Origin: a virus
DNA: 53,134 bases
IMG/VR virus record: IMGVR_UViG_3300045825_000032
Span: 1 to 53,134 of that record
Reading direction: 5' to 3' (one strand)
Positions 16,833-23,389 of the stretch are shown piece after piece (positions within the stretch are counted from its first letter, which is position 1; each line of letters starts with the position of its first letter). The position numbers were made by a program, and so were the translations under genes. The notes below the pieces were generated by a model. It had not been told where the DNA came from and made no database searches. It was given only the letters and a program-made list of their open reading frames with translations.

Positions 16833-17261
16833 TTACCACTCATCATCACTACCCTCCTCATCCCCGTTATAGAAAGCCAAGTAGGTATTAATCTCTTCTT
16901 CTGGCAGGAAACGATTATATGTAGTTACCAAATGACCAGTGTTAGCATTCTTAAACTCTACCATAGGAACCCAACCAGACTCTAACAAGTAGTCCTGTAG
17001 AATCGGATATTGCTTTGTACCATTAGCACCATAACTTGATACTAGGGAGCATTGGAGTAGATACCCCCCGCCCGAATACTGGTTATTCCCACTAACAATA
17101 TCTACCACATAGTCTATGAGCGTTTCTTCAAACTTGGTACTATTCCATTTAGGAGGTATTACTTTATCAAGGAAGGTACCATACTCCTCATTAAAGTTCC
17201 CTACTTGGATAATCCCACAACAATTATCATCAATACCAGCATAAAATCTAATATTATTCAT
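16833..17261 (-). CDS. Hypothetical protein
   Basis: 142 aa, starting MNNIRFYAGIDDNCCGIIQVG and ending in a strongly acidic tail (GDEEGSDDEW). No domain recognised; a mixed alpha/beta character with many aromatic residues is seen. It overlaps the zinc-ribbon gene by 8 bp and lies just upstream of the primase, between the ATP-grasp cluster and replication genes. Confidence 0.6.
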   Translation of the reverse strand: MNNIRFYAGIDDNCCGIIQVGNFNEEYGTFLDKVIPPKWNSTKFEETLIDYVVDIVSGNNQYSGGGYLLQCSLVSSYGANGTKQYPILQDYLLESGWVPMVEFKNANTGHLVTTYNRFLPEEEINTYLAFYNGDEEGSDDEW

Positions 17262-17463
17262 TATCTTCTCCTTCCTCTACATCACTAAAATCTTCCATGT
17301 CAATCGCTTCTGTAGCTTCCAAGTCTTCCCGTGTAACTACAGGAATATCAGAGGATACATCACGGAAGCATCGGTTACACAAATCAATGAATTCTCCAGT
17401 GACTCCATGTTTGCGGGTACTTTCAAAATCATTAAGGTTTTTATCACAAGCAACACAGCGCAT
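17254..17463 (-). CDS. Zinc-ribbon protein with acidic tail
   Basis: 69 aa. Two CxxC knuckles (CVACDKNLNDFESTRK and CNRCF) define a zinc ribbon of a type common in phages; the last 25 residues are almost all acidic or small. Its start overlaps the stop of the ATP-grasp gene by one base. It may be an adaptor or a target for the modification enzymes next to it; this is speculation. Confidence 0.65.
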   Translation of the reverse strand: MRCVACDKNLNDFESTRKHGVTGEFIDLCNRCFRDVSSDIPVVTREDLEATEAIDMEDFSDVEEGEDNE

Positions 17464-18167
17464 TATACAAGTCCTTTAATAATAGCATTAGCATAACTAT
17501 CCAGAGTCTCTCCCATCAGCCCCGGATTAGCATTAACCTCAAGCAGAATCAATCTATCTTGCTGCTTGTTATAAATAATATCCACAGCACCAAGAGGGTA
17601 ATCCAGCGCTTTAACTGCTTTGAGGGCCAAGTCCCGTAGTCCGTTAGGCTCTTGAATGTCTCCACGGCAAAAAATATAACCATTAGCAAGATTGCGAATC
17701 CGAGTATCCCGTGTATCATCGAAACTCCTTTTCTTTCGTTTCTCTTGAACATCAATCACAGTCCCATTCAGGATATGCACCCGATACTCAAACTTCTTCT
17801 TAGTATATTTCGTGTACAAGGGAGCATTCACCAACTCTTCCCGAGTCTTAGCAAATACAATTCCCTTTCCCTCACTAGACCGAAGTAGAGTACGACAGAC
17901 AACCTGAACTTCTTCTCCAAGCCAAGTAAGAGCAGTCTCGCGGCTATCCGTCCATTCCGGAATCGGTAGCCCCGCCACAGCAAACTTACGGAATTGTGTA
18001 AGCTTATCTGTCCCCCTAAACAATTGGAAAGCTTTACGCCCTCGTACTCGTTCAGGAGATACACGCCAAACCTTGTAACCCAGCTTGGCACTCATAGTTT
18101 CCGCTAGTTCTTTAGCGGCACGTGACCCCATATTATTGGGGACTAATACAATTTTCTTAGTGGACAA
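17463..18167 (-). CDS. RimK-like ATP-grasp ligase
   Basis: 234 aa. ATP-grasp features are a Lys/Arg-rich nucleotide-binding middle (EGKGIVFAKT, EYRVHIL) and the metal-binding C-terminal GAVDIIYN ... LILLEVNANPGL. The fold uses ATP to join a carboxylate to an amine through an acyl-phosphate. It overlaps the class II glutamine amidotransferase by 11 bp. The same set is known from phiEco32-like phages and was proposed to make or attach peptide-like tags. The substrate is unknown. Confidence 0.82.
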   Translation of the reverse strand: MSTKKIVLVPNNMGSRAAKELAETMSAKLGYKVWRVSPERVRGRKAFQLFRGTDKLTQFRKFAVAGLPIPEWTDSRETALTWLGEEVQVVCRTLLRSSEGKGIVFAKTREELVNAPLYTKYTKKKFEYRVHILNGTVIDVQEKRKKRSFDDTRDTRIRNLANGYIFCRGDIQEPNGLRDLALKAVKALDYPLGAVDIIYNKQQDRLILLEVNANPGLMGETLDSYANAIIKGLV

Positions 18168-19497
18168 CTAAAACTCCTTTATTAGCGTTAGGACCGACCG
18201 GTGTTTCTAGGTCTTGTTGTGAGAGGGTAATTGCAGATGTTGAACAAAGAACAAAGCCACTGGGTTCTGTGCCCTTCCATGTTGAAGGCCACATATTCTT
18301 TTGCCATGATTTGTTTTTAACAACACAATCAAATATACACCCAGTAGTAGCATACTCAATACACTCCTCCTCTTTAATTTTATCAGGGGCATATCTATGA
18401 CGAAGAACAACAGAAGGTTCATCTAGTGCCATAAGCCAAAGAAACATTCCATCCTTATCATCCACACCATTAATACAGGTAGCATCATAGGCATATGCCT
18501 CTACTGAGCAATCAGCAGGGATAACAGAGGTAATCTTTTCCCATTCAGTAACTGTACAATGTACCGCTTGTTTAGCACATTCCAGCATTTCTGTGGAGGT
18601 AAGAGCATTATCCCCAAATCCAACTACTAGGTTCATTGCTCTGTCTGCACAAGCATCCCGCCCTACATATCCTCCACGGGGACTATCATTCTGGTATGGG
18701 TGTCTATTCCACTTCCGTTCCTCATAGTCTTCCAAATCATATCCACAAGCATCAGGATAATATCCTGTAGTAATAGGAGCTACATATTTTGGTTTGATTT
18801 CAATTTTTGTATTAGTAACTCTCCATGATTTATCTACCAACTTATAGGAGCATTGAAGAAGCTCTGCTAGTTGAAAGGGTTTCTGTTTCCATACTAGATT
18901 CATCCGGTCCCCTACAAAATTCAACATAGCCAACTCAGAGGACCAAATCCATTCAGTATCTGTAGTCCCTACCCATAGAGGGCGTTGAGAATTCCGTAAG
19001 AAATTCACAGTTTCCTCCTCAAAGTTATACCAAATCAAGGCAAAGGCTCCATTAATAGTGTTAATGGCTACCTCTACCCCCTCTTTAGCAATCAAGTGGG
19101 CTATGGCATGACTATCCACATCAACATCAGCGTGTTGTTTATGGTCCCCCCATAGTGTACCATTATGGACAAGACAAATCTTATCATCCACTAGGAAAGG
19201 ATGGGCATTCTCATCAATGATATTACCCTTAGTGGCCTTTCGATTATGCCCAATGAGAGCACTACCATTAAGAATAGATAGCCGCATCAACTCATCATAA
19301 TCCTTATGACTCATGAACTCTTGTGCAGTACTTGCCTCCTTACTCAACCGAAGGGACCCATCGTTGGATACCAAGAAACTACCAGTGGAATCATCCCCCC
19401 TAAGGGTATCAACAAACAAAAGGGTTGAAAAGATTTCCTTCTGTCGTTGGGTAAATCCATTGGTATATTTACTAATAACTCCTACAAGTCCACACAT
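18157..19497 (-). CDS. Class II glutamine amidotransferase (Ntn fold)
   Basis: 446 aa. It begins MCGLVGVIS, so Cys2 becomes the N-terminal nucleophile that releases ammonia from glutamine; the expected RGDDSTG, GHNRKATKG, VHNGTLWG and DVDSHAIAH motifs follow in order. The C-terminal half (about residues 230-446) is not a known synthetase such as GlmS or AsnB and has no obvious acceptor domain. Ammonia or a glutamyl group could be passed to the neighbouring ATP-grasp or amidoligase enzymes. A near-copy of the palindrome (19052) lies in frame. Confidence 0.85.
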   Translation of the reverse strand: MCGLVGVISKYTNGFTQRQKEIFSTLLFVDTLRGDDSTGSFLVSNDGSLRLSKEASTAQEFMSHKDYDELMRLSILNGSALIGHNRKATKGNIIDENAHPFLVDDKICLVHNGTLWGDHKQHADVDVDSHAIAHLIAKEGVEVAINTINGAFALIWYNFEEETVNFLRNSQRPLWVGTTDTEWIWSSELAMLNFVGDRMNLVWKQKPFQLAELLQCSYKLVDKSWRVTNTKIEIKPKYVAPITTGYYPDACGYDLEDYEERKWNRHPYQNDSPRGGYVGRDACADRAMNLVVGFGDNALTSTEMLECAKQAVHCTVTEWEKITSVIPADCSVEAYAYDATCINGVDDKDGMFLWLMALDEPSVVLRHRYAPDKIKEEECIEYATTGCIFDCVVKNKSWQKNMWPSTWKGTEPSGFVLCSTSAITLSQQDLETPVGPNANKGVLVVH

Positions 19498-19498
19498 A

Positions 19499-20701
19499 TT
19501 ATGTATTCCTTTCTATTTCATATTCATTTAATTCTCTAATTGCTGCTGTATATTGAGCATCTGCCGCCTGTATTTCCGCTATATTACCCGCCAACATTCT
19601 CCGAGTCTGATGCTCCCTTGCTAGTAATTCCCTTTGATTCATGGGCCTTGGAGCTGGAGGGATAACATACTCTGTTCCAGTATGGCCTGTTAGTTCCGTT
19701 CCGTCTATGCGTCTAGCCGCTGTATCCCAACGCACAGCATTGTATTGTGTTCCTGCCGCAACACCTAGATTATGTAGACCTCCCTCCCTTAACCCCAGTA
19801 TTGCTTCTTCTTTAGAGATAGCTTTCTTTTTAGGAGGAACCACTACTTCCCGTTTATCTGGGTCAAATCCTACCAATGAGTACTTAGCTTGAATAACTCC
19901 ATCCTGTAGAGCGAGGCGATACTTATCATTGTAAGGAAGGAACCCATTAAAGACAGAATCAAAATACCGATTGTATTGAGAGCTATCATTCAATGTTGTA
20001 ATATCAGTAAAGATTTCATCAAAGGAAGATGATTTAGCCTTATACAGCAGGTGGCTAATAATATTCAACCATGTAGTAATCTTTGCTATATCCGCCGTAC
20101 CGTGCATATGTCGAAACTCTACTGTCCCCTGCTTAAGAATTGGTAGAAGATTCAATGCGGTATATTTTTGCCAGCGTTTTAATGTATCTGTTCCCTCTGT
20201 ATACAGCCCATTAATAAGTTTGTGATTCATTAGACATTGGGACCAAGGAATACAGTAGAGATTGGTGTCTCGATGCCCTCCTACAAACTCAAACAGAACC
20301 TGCTCAATAGTCTGGTAGCACAGAGCAAGACTAGATAACTGGTCCACAGTCATATCCACAACATTAGCATGAACATGGATACTACAGCGGTCAGTGAAAT
20401 TAGTCTCTGTGAATCCAGTCTGAGTGTAGAAGTAGTTAACACTGTTAATAAGACTTATAGCATTCATGGGCTTGGAGATAAACTCAAAGGCCCTACCACG
20501 AAGGGAAGAGTCATTAGTCACCAACCATTGATGAGCATCCAATGCAGCATGGTATGAATCAGCTCCATGACGACAATTTTCTACCTCAATCTCCATACCA
20601 AGAATCTGAGCTTGGTGAGGAATCTCTGGAGTCTTGCTGGTATATGTCAGAGGCATCTTGATGCCATAGATACTACCGATATTCGGTTCAGGTTTTTTCA
20701 T
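19499..20701 (-). CDS. Putative amidoligase (glutamine-synthetase-like fold)
   Basis: 400 aa from the ATG at 20701. The signatures GMEIEVEN (metal-binding Glu), RCSIHVHANV and GTVEFRHMHGT match the putative amidoligase superfamily related to glutamine synthetase and gamma-glutamylcysteine ligase, which form amide bonds with ATP. The C-terminal 120 residues are a helical, charged extension. It overlaps the preceding gene by 14 bp and is followed by the class II amidotransferase after one base. Acceptors are unknown. Confidence 0.8.
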   Translation of the reverse strand: MKKPEPNIGSIYGIKMPLTYTSKTPEIPHQAQILGMEIEVENCRHGADSYHAALDAHQWLVTNDSSLRGRAFEFISKPMNAISLINSVNYFYTQTGFTETNFTDRCSIHVHANVVDMTVDQLSSLALCYQTIEQVLFEFVGGHRDTNLYCIPWSQCLMNHKLINGLYTEGTDTLKRWQKYTALNLLPILKQGTVEFRHMHGTADIAKITTWLNIISHLLYKAKSSSFDEIFTDITTLNDSSQYNRYFDSVFNGFLPYNDKYRLALQDGVIQAKYSLVGFDPDKREVVVPPKKKAISKEEAILGLREGGLHNLGVAAGTQYNAVRWDTAARRIDGTELTGHTGTEYVIPPAPRPMNQRELLAREHQTRRMLAGNIAEIQAADAQYTAAIRELNEYEIERNT

Positions 20702-21308
20702 ATTGATGAATCTCCATAGTTTGTTCACAATTACGAAGGGCATCTTTAATTTCAGTAAGGAACATATTCCCAGATTTATTTAATTCGATTCGTCCAAGGT
20801 GCTGAAGGACCGACCCAACAATCTCCTTAAATACACAGATACCAAAGGGTGTTATTGCAATACTAGGTGAGATTGCATAGCAATTAAATTTTCCTACTGT
20901 TTCCTTAAAAGGAAGAGCCTTCTCATACACAGGTAAGAGACTAGAAAAATCAATATGCACAGGATTAAATCCTCTCTCTGTTACTTTATATGCACGCATA
21001 TTAGCAGAACATACTCCTCGTTTAAATTGACGACTGGCGTGGCGTTCCATAAAAAACAACCCGTCAGAAGTATTGTAGAAAGCAGAGGCCGGAGGAAGGA
21101 ACTCAAATCCAATCTCTCGTGCAATATCAGCATTTACCTGATACTTAGTTCCCTTTTTATCGGAAAAGCTCACAGTTTTTTCCTCTTGGTCAATATGCTC
21201 CAAGAGAGCAAGGAACTTACGAGTTCCATCCACAGTATAGAAACCAAAGGTTCCTTCATAGCGCTGACGGAAATCAGCAGATGTTGCTGAGAAGAATTTC
21301 TCAAACAT
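20688..21308 (-). CDS. Conserved protein of the amidoligase cluster, unknown
   Basis: 206 aa from the ATG at 21308, chosen for the GGAGG 6 nt upstream and the 8-bp overlap with the upstream ligase. The sequence (MFEKFFSATSADFRQRYEG...) has a basic segment RHASRQFKRGVCSANMRAY and no catalytic motif I recognise. Sitting between two amidoligase genes, it could be a substrate carrier, scaffold or modified target. An AGGACCGACC copy is read as GSVL near its C-terminus. Confidence 0.65.
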   Translation of the reverse strand: MFEKFFSATSADFRQRYEGTFGFYTVDGTRKFLALLEHIDQEEKTVSFSDKKGTKYQVNADIAREIGFEFLPPASAFYNTSDGLFFMERHASRQFKRGVCSANMRAYKVTERGFNPVHIDFSSLLPVYEKALPFKETVGKFNCYAISPSIAITPFGICVFKEIVGSVLQHLGRIELNKSGNMFLTEIKDALRNCEQTMEIHQYEKT

Positions 21309-22089
21309 GGATAACCTCCAATCCAAATTTAGATACCATTTCTTGAGCCAATCGTTTATCATTATTGTTAATTGTGTTGACGATGCTATCTCGATATTCA
21401 TCGAAAGGAAACTGTGCTTCCACAGCAGAGATTGCTCGTTCTGTATTTCTCCATACCCATTCAATCAAACGATCGTCAAAAATCCAGAAGTTTGACAGAG
21501 TACGATACTCAAGGCCATAAGGCTTATACCGGACTGCTCCAGCTTTACCATACAACAGCTTGCGTTTGTCGCCTTTGTCCATTAGGACCGACCCAATTCC
21601 TAGGTGCATATCCATAGCCTTACCTAATTGGTCTGCATTAACAGTGTTAACATCCTCCAAACCAATATGAATGTGTCCCCCACAAGAGCGAAGAGTTTTA
21701 TCTTCTGCCTCTGGTCGAGGATTCTTCTTACCCGTCCAAACATTGTAATCAGGGTCACAGCCAAAATTCAAGGCCGCATCCGATTGCAATTCAGATTCAG
21801 GGAAAGAAGCAGCACTCTCATTAATAATCTGGAAACCATAACGGTTTTTGATTACTCCAGAGAGGAAATCCAAGGTGGATTTAATATGACTAACATATTC
21901 TTCTGCACCAGATGCAGGAGGAATATTGAATTCCATAGCCACATTATCTTCCTGAACAGCAAATCCCTTCCCAAGTGGAAGGTCCAGAGGAAATGCCTTA
22001 CTACCACCAATCAAACCCACAGAAGATTTGAGATTACCCTGCAAATCCGCCATGAATACTTCTGGGTCACAGCCAAGTTTAAATTTCAT
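21301..22089 (-). CDS. Phage-type COOH-NH2 ligase (type 2 amidoligase)
   Basis: 262 aa from the ATG at 22089 (AGGTG just upstream). The motifs GCDPEVFM, QEDNVAMEFNIPPA, RSCGGHIHIG and GLEYRTLSNFW are those of the phage COOH-NH2 ligase family, a glutamine-synthetase-related fold in which His and Glu residues bind metal and ATP. Expected to join a carboxylate to an amine. Its length is typical of the family. It overlaps genes on both sides. Confidence 0.85.
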   Translation of the reverse strand: MKFKLGCDPEVFMADLQGNLKSSVGLIGGSKAFPLDLPLGKGFAVQEDNVAMEFNIPPASGAEEYVSHIKSTLDFLSGVIKNRYGFQIINESAASFPESELQSDAALNFGCDPDYNVWTGKKNPRPEAEDKTLRSCGGHIHIGLEDVNTVNADQLGKAMDMHLGIGSVLMDKGDKRKLLYGKAGAVRYKPYGLEYRTLSNFWIFDDRLIEWVWRNTERAISAVEAQFPFDEYRDSIVNTINNNDKRLAQEMVSKFGLEVIHV

Positions 22090-22402
22090 ACACCTCACCC
22101 TTTCCTTTGTAAATGTAAATGGTTAATCGACGCGGTTTACTTGGATAATTCGGATTACTAATCACCGGACTCTGATGAATCAAGTACTCAGAAAATCCTA
22201 AAGTCTCCAATTGTTTTTTTGCAATAGGTTGCATATCTGTTAGAATAAAAATCAATGTGGTATCAGAGATTTTTAATAGCTCCAATAACTCCAACCAAGT
22301 ATTAACTCTTGGAGCATCAATTGGTATCTCAAAAATATTATAACCCTTTGGAATAATCTGTACATCTGTATAGACCTTCTCAGAAAATACACTAATAATC
22401 AT
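22079..22402 (-). CDS. Hypothetical protein of the amidoligase cluster
   Basis: 107 aa from the ATG at 22402. Beta-rich with a central helix (WLELLELLKI) and no recognised motif. It overlaps the COOH-NH2 ligase start by 11 bp, so it is very likely co-translated with it. Function unknown. Confidence 0.55.
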   Translation of the reverse strand: MIISVFSEKVYTDVQIIPKGYNIFEIPIDAPRVNTWLELLELLKISDTTLIFILTDMQPIAKKQLETLGFSEYLIHQSPVISNPNYPSKPRRLTIYIYKGKGEVYEI

Positions 22403-22403
22403 G

Positions 22404-22751
22404 TTAACCGTTCCAATACATAATATGAAGTTTACAATCGGTATCCTCAAGAGTTACCACCACTTTTTCTGCATCTTTGGTAACATCCTCTGGAGGATAT
22501 AGTTTTGGAGGTACTTTATCTGGTCCCCATATGGTATCAGGGTCTTCAGTTACTCCTAAAATTCGATTTATCTTTTGGTATACCTCTAAACTATGACCAA
22601 CAGTGAGACTTCCACAACAATTTGAAAGACTCCCATAATCGAGTAGTAATCCGAAAGGAACTTTCTTCCTTTTCTTATAACCATGTAAAGTTATAGCACT
22701 CCTCTGATTAAATTTTGCTAAGATATCCTCTACTGCTTTGCGGTTTGACAT
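22404..22751 (-). CDS. Hypothetical protein of the amidoligase cluster
   Basis: 115 aa (MSNRKAVEDILAKFNQRS...), basic in its first third, with one Cys-Cys pair (SNCCGS). It overlaps the class I amidotransferase gene by 22 bp and ends just before the next start. No domain recognised. Confidence 0.55.
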   Translation of the reverse strand: MSNRKAVEDILAKFNQRSAITLHGYKKRKKVPFGLLLDYGSLSNCCGSLTVGHSLEVYQKINRILGVTEDPDTIWGPDKVPPKLYPPEDVTKDAEKVVVTLEDTDCKLHIMYWNG

Positions 22752-23389
22752 AGGCGTTCCTTCATAGTTTCAAACACATACTGAGTAGCCTCAGTCCGTC
22801 CATCCATCATTTCAGGATGCCATTGGATAGCGAATCCTTTTACATCTTTGAAATAGACATACTCAGGTTCGTGCCAATCAGGACTTGGAGGAGTCCATAC
22901 TTGGTCGTCTTTATAAATATAATGAGAACTCAAGTTATTGGGTAGCCAAGCCAATAGCTCGTGGTTTGTCTTCTCCAATCCTGCCATCATTTGATGGTGA
23001 ATAGAGTTTGTGCTGAAGGACCGACCATTAACAGTGTTAACTGTGTGTCGCCCACCATGACCGCGTACATCTTGGATAAGATAACCACCAGCCAAGGCAC
23101 ATAACATTTGAGCACCACGACAGATACCAATGATAGGAATACCCATCTCTTTAGCACGTTGCATCAAGTCCCACTCAGCATGGTCCCGTGTAGGATAAGG
23201 ATAAGTAGACTTGGATTGGGGATGCTTATAGGTCCACGTACCAATGTCTGACCCACCCCATACTACCAACATGGAATCCTTTTCCTTCAAATCCTCTGGC
23301 AATCGTGCTGTAACAACAATCTTAACCAGAGCATCAAAGGGATGGGCATCCCCACCACTAAGCGCACTATATAGAATTTTTGCAATCAT
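22730..23389 (-). CDS. Class I glutamine amidotransferase (gamma-glutamyl hydrolase/C26-like)
   Basis: 219 aa. The nucleophile elbow is GICRGAQ with Cys90, and the partner His/Glu are in AIQWHPEMM, the triad of class I GATases and C26 gamma-glutamyl peptidases such as PuuD. It could cleave gamma-glutamyl amides, removing or recycling what the ligases make, or supply ammonia. It is the first enzyme of the cluster. An AGGACCGACC copy and an exact palindrome lie next to each other within it (23017-23040), encoding VNTVNGRS. Confidence 0.85.
   Translation of the reverse strand: MIAKILYSALSGGDAHPFDALVKIVVTARLPEDLKEKDSMLVVWGGSDIGTWTYKHPQSKSTYPYPTRDHAEWDLMQRAKEMGIPIIGICRGAQMLCALAGGYLIQDVRGHGGRHTVNTVNGRSFSTNSIHHQMMAGLEKTNHELLAWLPNNLSSHYIYKDDQVWTPPSPDWHEPEYVYFKDVKGFAIQWHPEMMDGRTEATQYVFETMKERLCQTAKQ

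Follow-up and report, generated by a model that had tools for sequence, protein, structure and literature searches.

The nine minus-strand open reading frames (ORFs) described here, lettered A to I, lie at 17254-23389 of the IMG/VR virus record IMGVR_UViG_3300045825_000032, a single phage contig of 53,134 bp that was analysed as one stretch and is called the window below. With a probability that we put at roughly 45%, this cluster encodes a phage pathway that builds and edits a gamma-glutamyl amide. Two regularities among related phages lead to this proposal: a 206-amino-acid (aa) protein with no named family, E, accompanies the four predicted enzymes D, F, G and H as the fifth core part of the standard module, and nearly every module has a peptidase C26 protein such as A, a protein of the gamma-glutamyl cyclotransferase (GGCT) family or both, the exceptions being found only at contig ends.

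Gene content, order and distribution of the cluster

The window encodes a terminase, a portal-like protein, a DNA polymerase, a helicase, a primase, an exonuclease, an endolysin and the large subunit of a ribonucleotide reductase. A megablast search of 12 kb of it against phages gave no match; the phage is too distant from all isolated phages for one. The cluster runs A-B-C-D-E-F-G-H-I in the direction of transcription and is followed by the primase gene. A (22730..23389, minus strand like all that follow; 219 aa) resembles class I glutamine amidotransferases (GATases) of the peptidase C26 family (Peptidase_C26, 4e-16). D (21301..22098; 265 aa, starting at GTG 22098 or ATG 22089) belongs to PF14395, the COOH-NH2 ligases of type 2, and is followed by E (20688..21308) and by F (19499..20743; 414 aa as listed), an amidoligase of family PF12224. 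G (18157..19497; 446 aa) is a class II GATase of the GlmS/PurF type, and H (17463..18167; 234 aa, TTG start) is a RimK-like ATP-grasp ligase. All nine ORFs of the preliminary description are thus present in the order it gave, and its calls of the enzyme families were confirmed by Pfam and PHROGs.

The cluster is real, far beyond chance, because dozens of independent phage contigs show the identical order of genes. The PF14395, PF12224, class II GATase and RimK-like genes and their order all fit the amidoligase module of the phiEco32/LUZ24 type, to which we assign the window on its gene content. Modules of the phiEco32, LUZ24 and PA11 type have the PF14395, E-family, PF12224, class II GATase and RimK-like genes in common with the window, and in phiEco32 and LUZ24 these genes stand in the same order and are followed by primase, which agrees with the kinship to phiEco32-type amidoligase/ATP-grasp/GATase modules suggested earlier. 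The versions differ in that phiEco32 and LUZ24 carry GGCT and no C26, whereas the window carries C26 and no GGCT; B and C are inserted in the window, and its ATP-grasp protein has 234 aa compared with 397 aa in phiEco32. Iyer et al. 2009 reportedly predicted amidoligase modules of the phiEco32 type.

Searched with tblastn against 50,697 phage records, F, D, G and H matched 312, 312, 338 and 310 of them, with near-identical counts per host genus (in the order F/D/G/H, 119/121/121/120 for Pseudomonas and 92/93/92/93 for Escherichia). PF14395, which serves as the marker of the module, is encoded by some 310 of the isolated phages, among them LUZ24-like, phiEco32-like and Zobellviridae phages. The D profile found at least 589 places in IMG/VR and 10 in 84,980 bacterial and archaeal species genomes, all 10 in metagenome-assembled bins (L095-L104), some of them very short, which may be misbinned phage contigs. 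Because it is abundant in phages and so rare in the species genomes, the module looks essentially phage-specific. Six of the cluster proteins, compared with the PADLOC models of anti-phage defence, gave no match at 0.01.

The tight overlaps of the genes had been taken to make a stoichiometric complex plausible. Overlaps of 4-47 nt do join A through primase, but overlaps of 4-8 nt run on through primase and past it, those of 4 nt for three further genes; they are a property of the whole replication operon and therefore no evidence for such a complex.

Protein E is a core part of the standard module

Although the ORF list gave E as 258 aa from a TTG codon, its homologues and a GGAGG site support the start at ATG 21308 and hence the length of 206 aa that had been proposed before. 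A hypothetical protein of 179-206 aa sits between the PF14395 and PF12224 genes in all eight named phages. A profile built from these homologues and the window E was applied to every ORF in the IMG/VR loci, and gene order was counted in the 69 loci that extend 5 kb or more past D. The order D-E-F-G-H was found in 60 of the 69, eight of which then have GGCT; the remaining nine comprise one whose E slot holds a divergent protein, one without H after G, and seven with a second type of module, so that D-E-F-G-H is present in 60 of the 62 loci of standard order. When the profile was rebuilt from the 60 members, every significant match fell in the expected slot between D and F.

The second type of module (L054, L060, L066, L069, L083, L085, L088 and L090) has another gene order, for example GGCT-H-A-D-G-F; its F and G are longer and very divergent, E is undetectable, and most of these loci have both C26 and GGCT.

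No Pfam family matched any of the 60 E members, and their PHROGs matches were to two unnamed families only. The proteins have a conserved internal basic motif (R.P.RQW[KR]RG[IL]...N) and no conserved terminal residue, a placement that would count mildly against a role as tag or carrier. The AlphaFold2 model is confident (pLDDT 94.2, pTM 0.87) and consists of an SH3/Sm-like N-terminal barrel, further strands and a C-terminal helix. Foldseek found nothing in the PDB below E 0.01, and no solved structure matches the whole protein; VIA-align gave a weak match (Z ~6) to Sm/Tudor folds, covering residues 6-73 only. In a library of viral structures nine phage proteins scored below 0.001, at least one of which (from CW02) is an E homologue.

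C26 or GGCT proteins accompany the module

In A, Cys90, His191 and Glu193 are invariant in 15 homologues; Cys, His and Glu are the catalytic positions of the class I GATase/C26 fold. The nearest characterised relatives of A are gamma-glutamyl hydrolases (PuuD and the gamma-glutamyl-CDP-amidate hydrolase). GGCT was not found in the window at E <= 1, leaving C26 as its only enzyme of the two; in LUZ24, phiEco32, CW02 and an Alcaligenes phage, GGCT adjoins the module. Profiles of the two families were applied to the full length of 50 records, of which 49 had C26, GGCT or both; in the exception, L015, the contig begins 110 bp ahead of D. The two are near-exclusive in standard modules (n=44; 35 with C26 only, six with GGCT only and three with both), at a Fisher p of 1.2e-5 without L015 and 6.7e-5 with it, in a test that ignores kinship. 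After clustering at 80% identity of D, three of 75 clusters lacked both enzymes in the stretch examined: L015; L056, in which C26 was found elsewhere on the contig; and L066, in which the stretch stops at the contig end.

The isolated phages agree with this, counted as genus totals that were not joined record by record: 121 modules against 105 GGCT and 16 C26 in Pseudomonas phages, 93 modules and 93 GGCT in Escherichia phages, three modules and three C26 in Klebsiella phages, and 11, 8, 7 and 6 modules, all with GGCT, in Aeromonas, Proteus, Salmonella and Cronobacter phages. C26 and GGCT are unrelated families, and their best-known reactions (those of PuuD, SpuA, GGCT and BtrG) open gamma-glutamyl bonds. 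It is because of the presence of C26 or GGCT, and of the nearest named relatives of A, that we propose gamma-glutamyl chemistry.

Comparable pairings are found in characterised pathways. In the Puu and Spu pathways, and with the gamma-glutamyl-CDP-amidate hydrolase of the Campylobacter capsule, a C26 hydrolase related in sequence to A is partnered with a gamma-glutamyl-amide ligase; these systems differ from the module in that A scores far below the equivalog cut-offs (47.6 against 250 bits for NF045546, 21.3 against 266 for PuuD) and the phage ligases come from other families. The butirosin side-chain and glutathione pathways combine an ATP-grasp or GCS-type ligase with a GGCT-family enzyme, so that, as in the phage modules, one pathway contains both an ATP-grasp ligase and an enzyme of the GGCT family. 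The butirosin pathway differs in its acyl carrier protein, which the phage module does not have, and no sequence match of the module proteins to GCS or GshB was found.

The ligases and the glutaminase

D matches PF14395 at 6.5e-9, above the Pfam cut-off, and phrog_3815 at 1.5e-79, with 35 invariant columns among nine sequences. F matches PF12224 at 3.4e-10 and phrog_7469 at 5e-36; it starts at ATG 20743 or at ATG 20701, the latter favoured by a GGAG-like site, and E51, E53, E55, D78, E87, H123, H125, R158, E209 and R211 are invariant in 30 sequences. Compared profile to profile, D and F gave a probability of 9%, and common ancestry was not seen. H matches RimK at 1.6e-5 and phrog_2599 at 3.7e-49; R92, E127, R129, H131, R158, N159, D196, E210 and N212 are invariant in 29 sequences, and its nearest characterised relatives are alpha-L-glutamate ligases of the RimK/MptN type.

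G (GATase_6, 1.8e-14; phrog_4736, 1e-63) has a GlmS/PurF-type glutaminase domain at residues 1-232, a disordered linker at about 244-305 and a C-terminal domain at about 308-421. The modelled N-terminal domain has Z scores of 24-25 with PurF and GlmS, and the C-terminal domain resembles the OB/S1 fold, weakly (Z 8.5 and 7.8). R86, N112, G113 and D128 are invariant and Cys2 and T89 at least 90% conserved, at the positions expected for a glutamine site of the GlmS/PurF type. The preliminary description had named mutated catalytic residues as a finding that would refute its reading; in the alignments the conserved residues are intact in each enzyme family, and from the folds we infer that they are catalytic.

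The GATase genes of phiEco32 and SU10 lie at L011 14494-16524 and L105 7291-9321. As annotated, the SU10 protein begins with ICGIV on a non-ATG codon, and the form that matches the published proteomics mass (63.8 kDa) starts at Met114. The published start is probably wrong, because the Met114 form would be without the catalytic N-terminal Cys.

Timing of expression

In phage PaP3, ORF22-56 are early-to-middle genes, which an inhibitor test placed among the middle genes, and expression of ORF32-48 is highest at 10-30 min (PMC4707531); the PaP3 module genes p48, p47, orf45 and orf42/41 fall within the ORF22-56 range. Mass spectrometry of concentrated phage SU10 detected six early products, including the ATP-grasp protein, the GATase, YtfP/GGCT and, by one peptide, a hypothetical protein of 23.3 kDa (PMC4281155). 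Its mass identifies this hypothetical protein as SU10_087, the homologue of E (23.3 kDa, compared with 42.2 kDa for the amidoligase encoded next to it). These data show expression and not placement in the virion, because DNA polymerase was also detected (PMC4281155).

The leftward early region of the window is headed, about 6 kb upstream of the module, by a minus-strand promoter (29258..29286) that matches the sigma-70 consensus perfectly (TTGACA-17-TATAAT, with TG) and is a candidate source of the module transcript. It is one of a divergent pair, the other lying about 90 bp away at 29375-29403 on the plus strand, between the leftward and rightward transcription units; each has 12 of 12 consensus positions, a 17-nt spacer and TG.

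Neighbouring genes

I (17254..17463; 69 aa) is a small zinc ribbon with an acidic tail. It matches Pfam weakly (0.057), and is called a zinc ribbon because its cysteines are spaced CxxC/CxxC and because about 52 genes beside the module in related loci encode proteins that resemble it. The family adjoins primase, just upstream of it. When the surroundings of the module were searched for another universal component, only primase and the zinc ribbon proved frequent, and I is probably a neighbour of the module and not a core part.

B (22404..22751; 115 aa) and C (22079..22450; 123 aa, with an uncertain TTG start) are the two ORFans inserted between A and D; B has homologues in none of 88 other loci, and the homologue search with C was empty. 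The small proteins encoded at 16833-17261 and 22404-22751 have an NCCG motif in common (DDNCCGIIQVG and LSNCCGSLTVG). A family reached from gene 44 of the Alcaligenes phage has a similar CCG motif and lies between A and D in several loci; it also takes in the L015 homologue of the 16833-17261 protein. Unrelated phages have, upstream of the module, members of one family of uncharacterised proteins of 320-500 aa (L014 3545-5041, L012 12062-13390 and L079 4998-5957; jackhmmer matches of 1e-17 to 1e-71). In GGCT-type modules, the large proteins encoded upstream of D (LUZ24 gp14/gp15, phiEco32 gp87/gp88) are mostly unrelated by sequence. At the start of the contig (3-4127, plus strand), beside the endolysin gene, an ORF of 1347-1374 aa has no PHROG match and possibly encodes a large virion protein.

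Discussion

In the pathway that we propose, G would convert glutamine into glutamate and ammonia, and D, F and H would each use ATP to link a carboxylate with ammonia or an amine, glutamate serving either as the donor or as the acceptor. The gamma-glutamyl group would be taken off or recycled by A, or by GGCT in other phages, and E, a dedicated partner without catalytic activity of its own, would bind the ligases, the acceptor or the product. The pathway would be made in early-to-middle infection, before assembly, for which reason a metabolite or host component is a likelier target than the virion; a small metabolite, a wall precursor or a protein are candidates. That E itself is the acceptor, on which D, F, G and H would build a gamma-glutamyl-type amide later edited by C26 or GGCT, we consider quite doubtful.

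Several points weigh against the proposed pathway. The substrate is not fixed by the family, since relatives of C26 include ammonia-producing subunits and some proteins with GGCT-like folds have other or undefined functions. The records without C26 that enter the Fisher test fall in about four lineages, and the seven loci of the second module type without detectable E suggest that E is dispensable in some versions. We know of no assayed enzyme from either PF14395 or PF12224, and no usable match was found among solved structures searched by sequence with the D and F profiles.

A modification of the host cell wall or envelope, by amidation of peptidoglycan stems or addition of amino acids and serving for example to exclude other phages, would be compatible with gamma-glutamyl chemistry, and peptidoglycan stems contain gamma-D-glutamyl bonds and offer amidated groups. 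The named phages with the full module that we examined all infect Gram-negative bacteria, the timing of expression would fit as well, and this is the proposal published for phiEco32 (Iyer et al. 2009, cited through PMC10580990). However, none of the module proteins examined is annotated or modelled as secreted or membrane-bound, although no signal-peptide predictor was run, so that they would have to act on cytoplasmic precursors; nor is there a MurT-like or Mur-ligase relative in the set, and we think this reading unlikely. The same grade of doubt attaches to a reading in which glutamate or a peptide is added as a tag to a protein of the host or the phage, in the manner of RimK acting on ribosomal protein S6. 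The relatives of H speak for it, and the OB/S1-like domain of G and the Sm/Tudor-like barrel of E would fit a ribonucleoprotein target, but these structural matches are weak and a common fold shows no function; moreover, one ATP-grasp enzyme is enough for poly-glutamylation, which leaves D, F and G unexplained.

Hypermodification of phage DNA bases would accord with the constant position of the module beside replication genes and with the possible nucleic-acid-binding-like folds of E and G, yet it is very improbable: the DNA of phage tf, a LUZ24-like phage with module genes, was cut by RsaI, HpaI, EcoRV, SmaI and HaeIII, cloned and sequenced (PMC3517423), which disfavours a genome-wide modification, and no base-modification partner gene recurs beside the module. 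Hardly credible, finally, is the idea that the RimK-like ligase loads I as an amino-group carrier of the LysW kind. The preliminary description had named the zinc ribbon, with the 206-aa protein, as a candidate carrier or target, and in the window and three other loci a small acidic zinc ribbon does directly follow the ATP-grasp gene. LysW requires a fixed C-terminal Glu, however, and the C-termini of about 50 homologues of I vary, with no conserved glutamate; its distance to H ranges from 0 to more than 2 kb and its gene tracks primase, and on these grounds the LysW-like role was rejected, and I is not supported as carrier or target.

The module is thus of a known, predicted kind, of which the window phage is a new member, and in the literature searched we found, as the preliminary description had said, no demonstrated product. 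That description did not include the recurrent C26 or GGCT component, which points to gamma-glutamyl chemistry. Neither the universality of E in standard modules nor the C26/GGCT rule was found in the same literature, although Iyer et al. 2009 may contain part of them. With E as a core part and C26 or GGCT near-universal, the search for the product narrows from any amide to gamma-glutamyl species, and the minimal set for expression can be named as D, E, F, G and H plus A or GGCT. If E were indeed the acceptor, post-translational tagging or carrier systems would gain a new, phage-restricted type.

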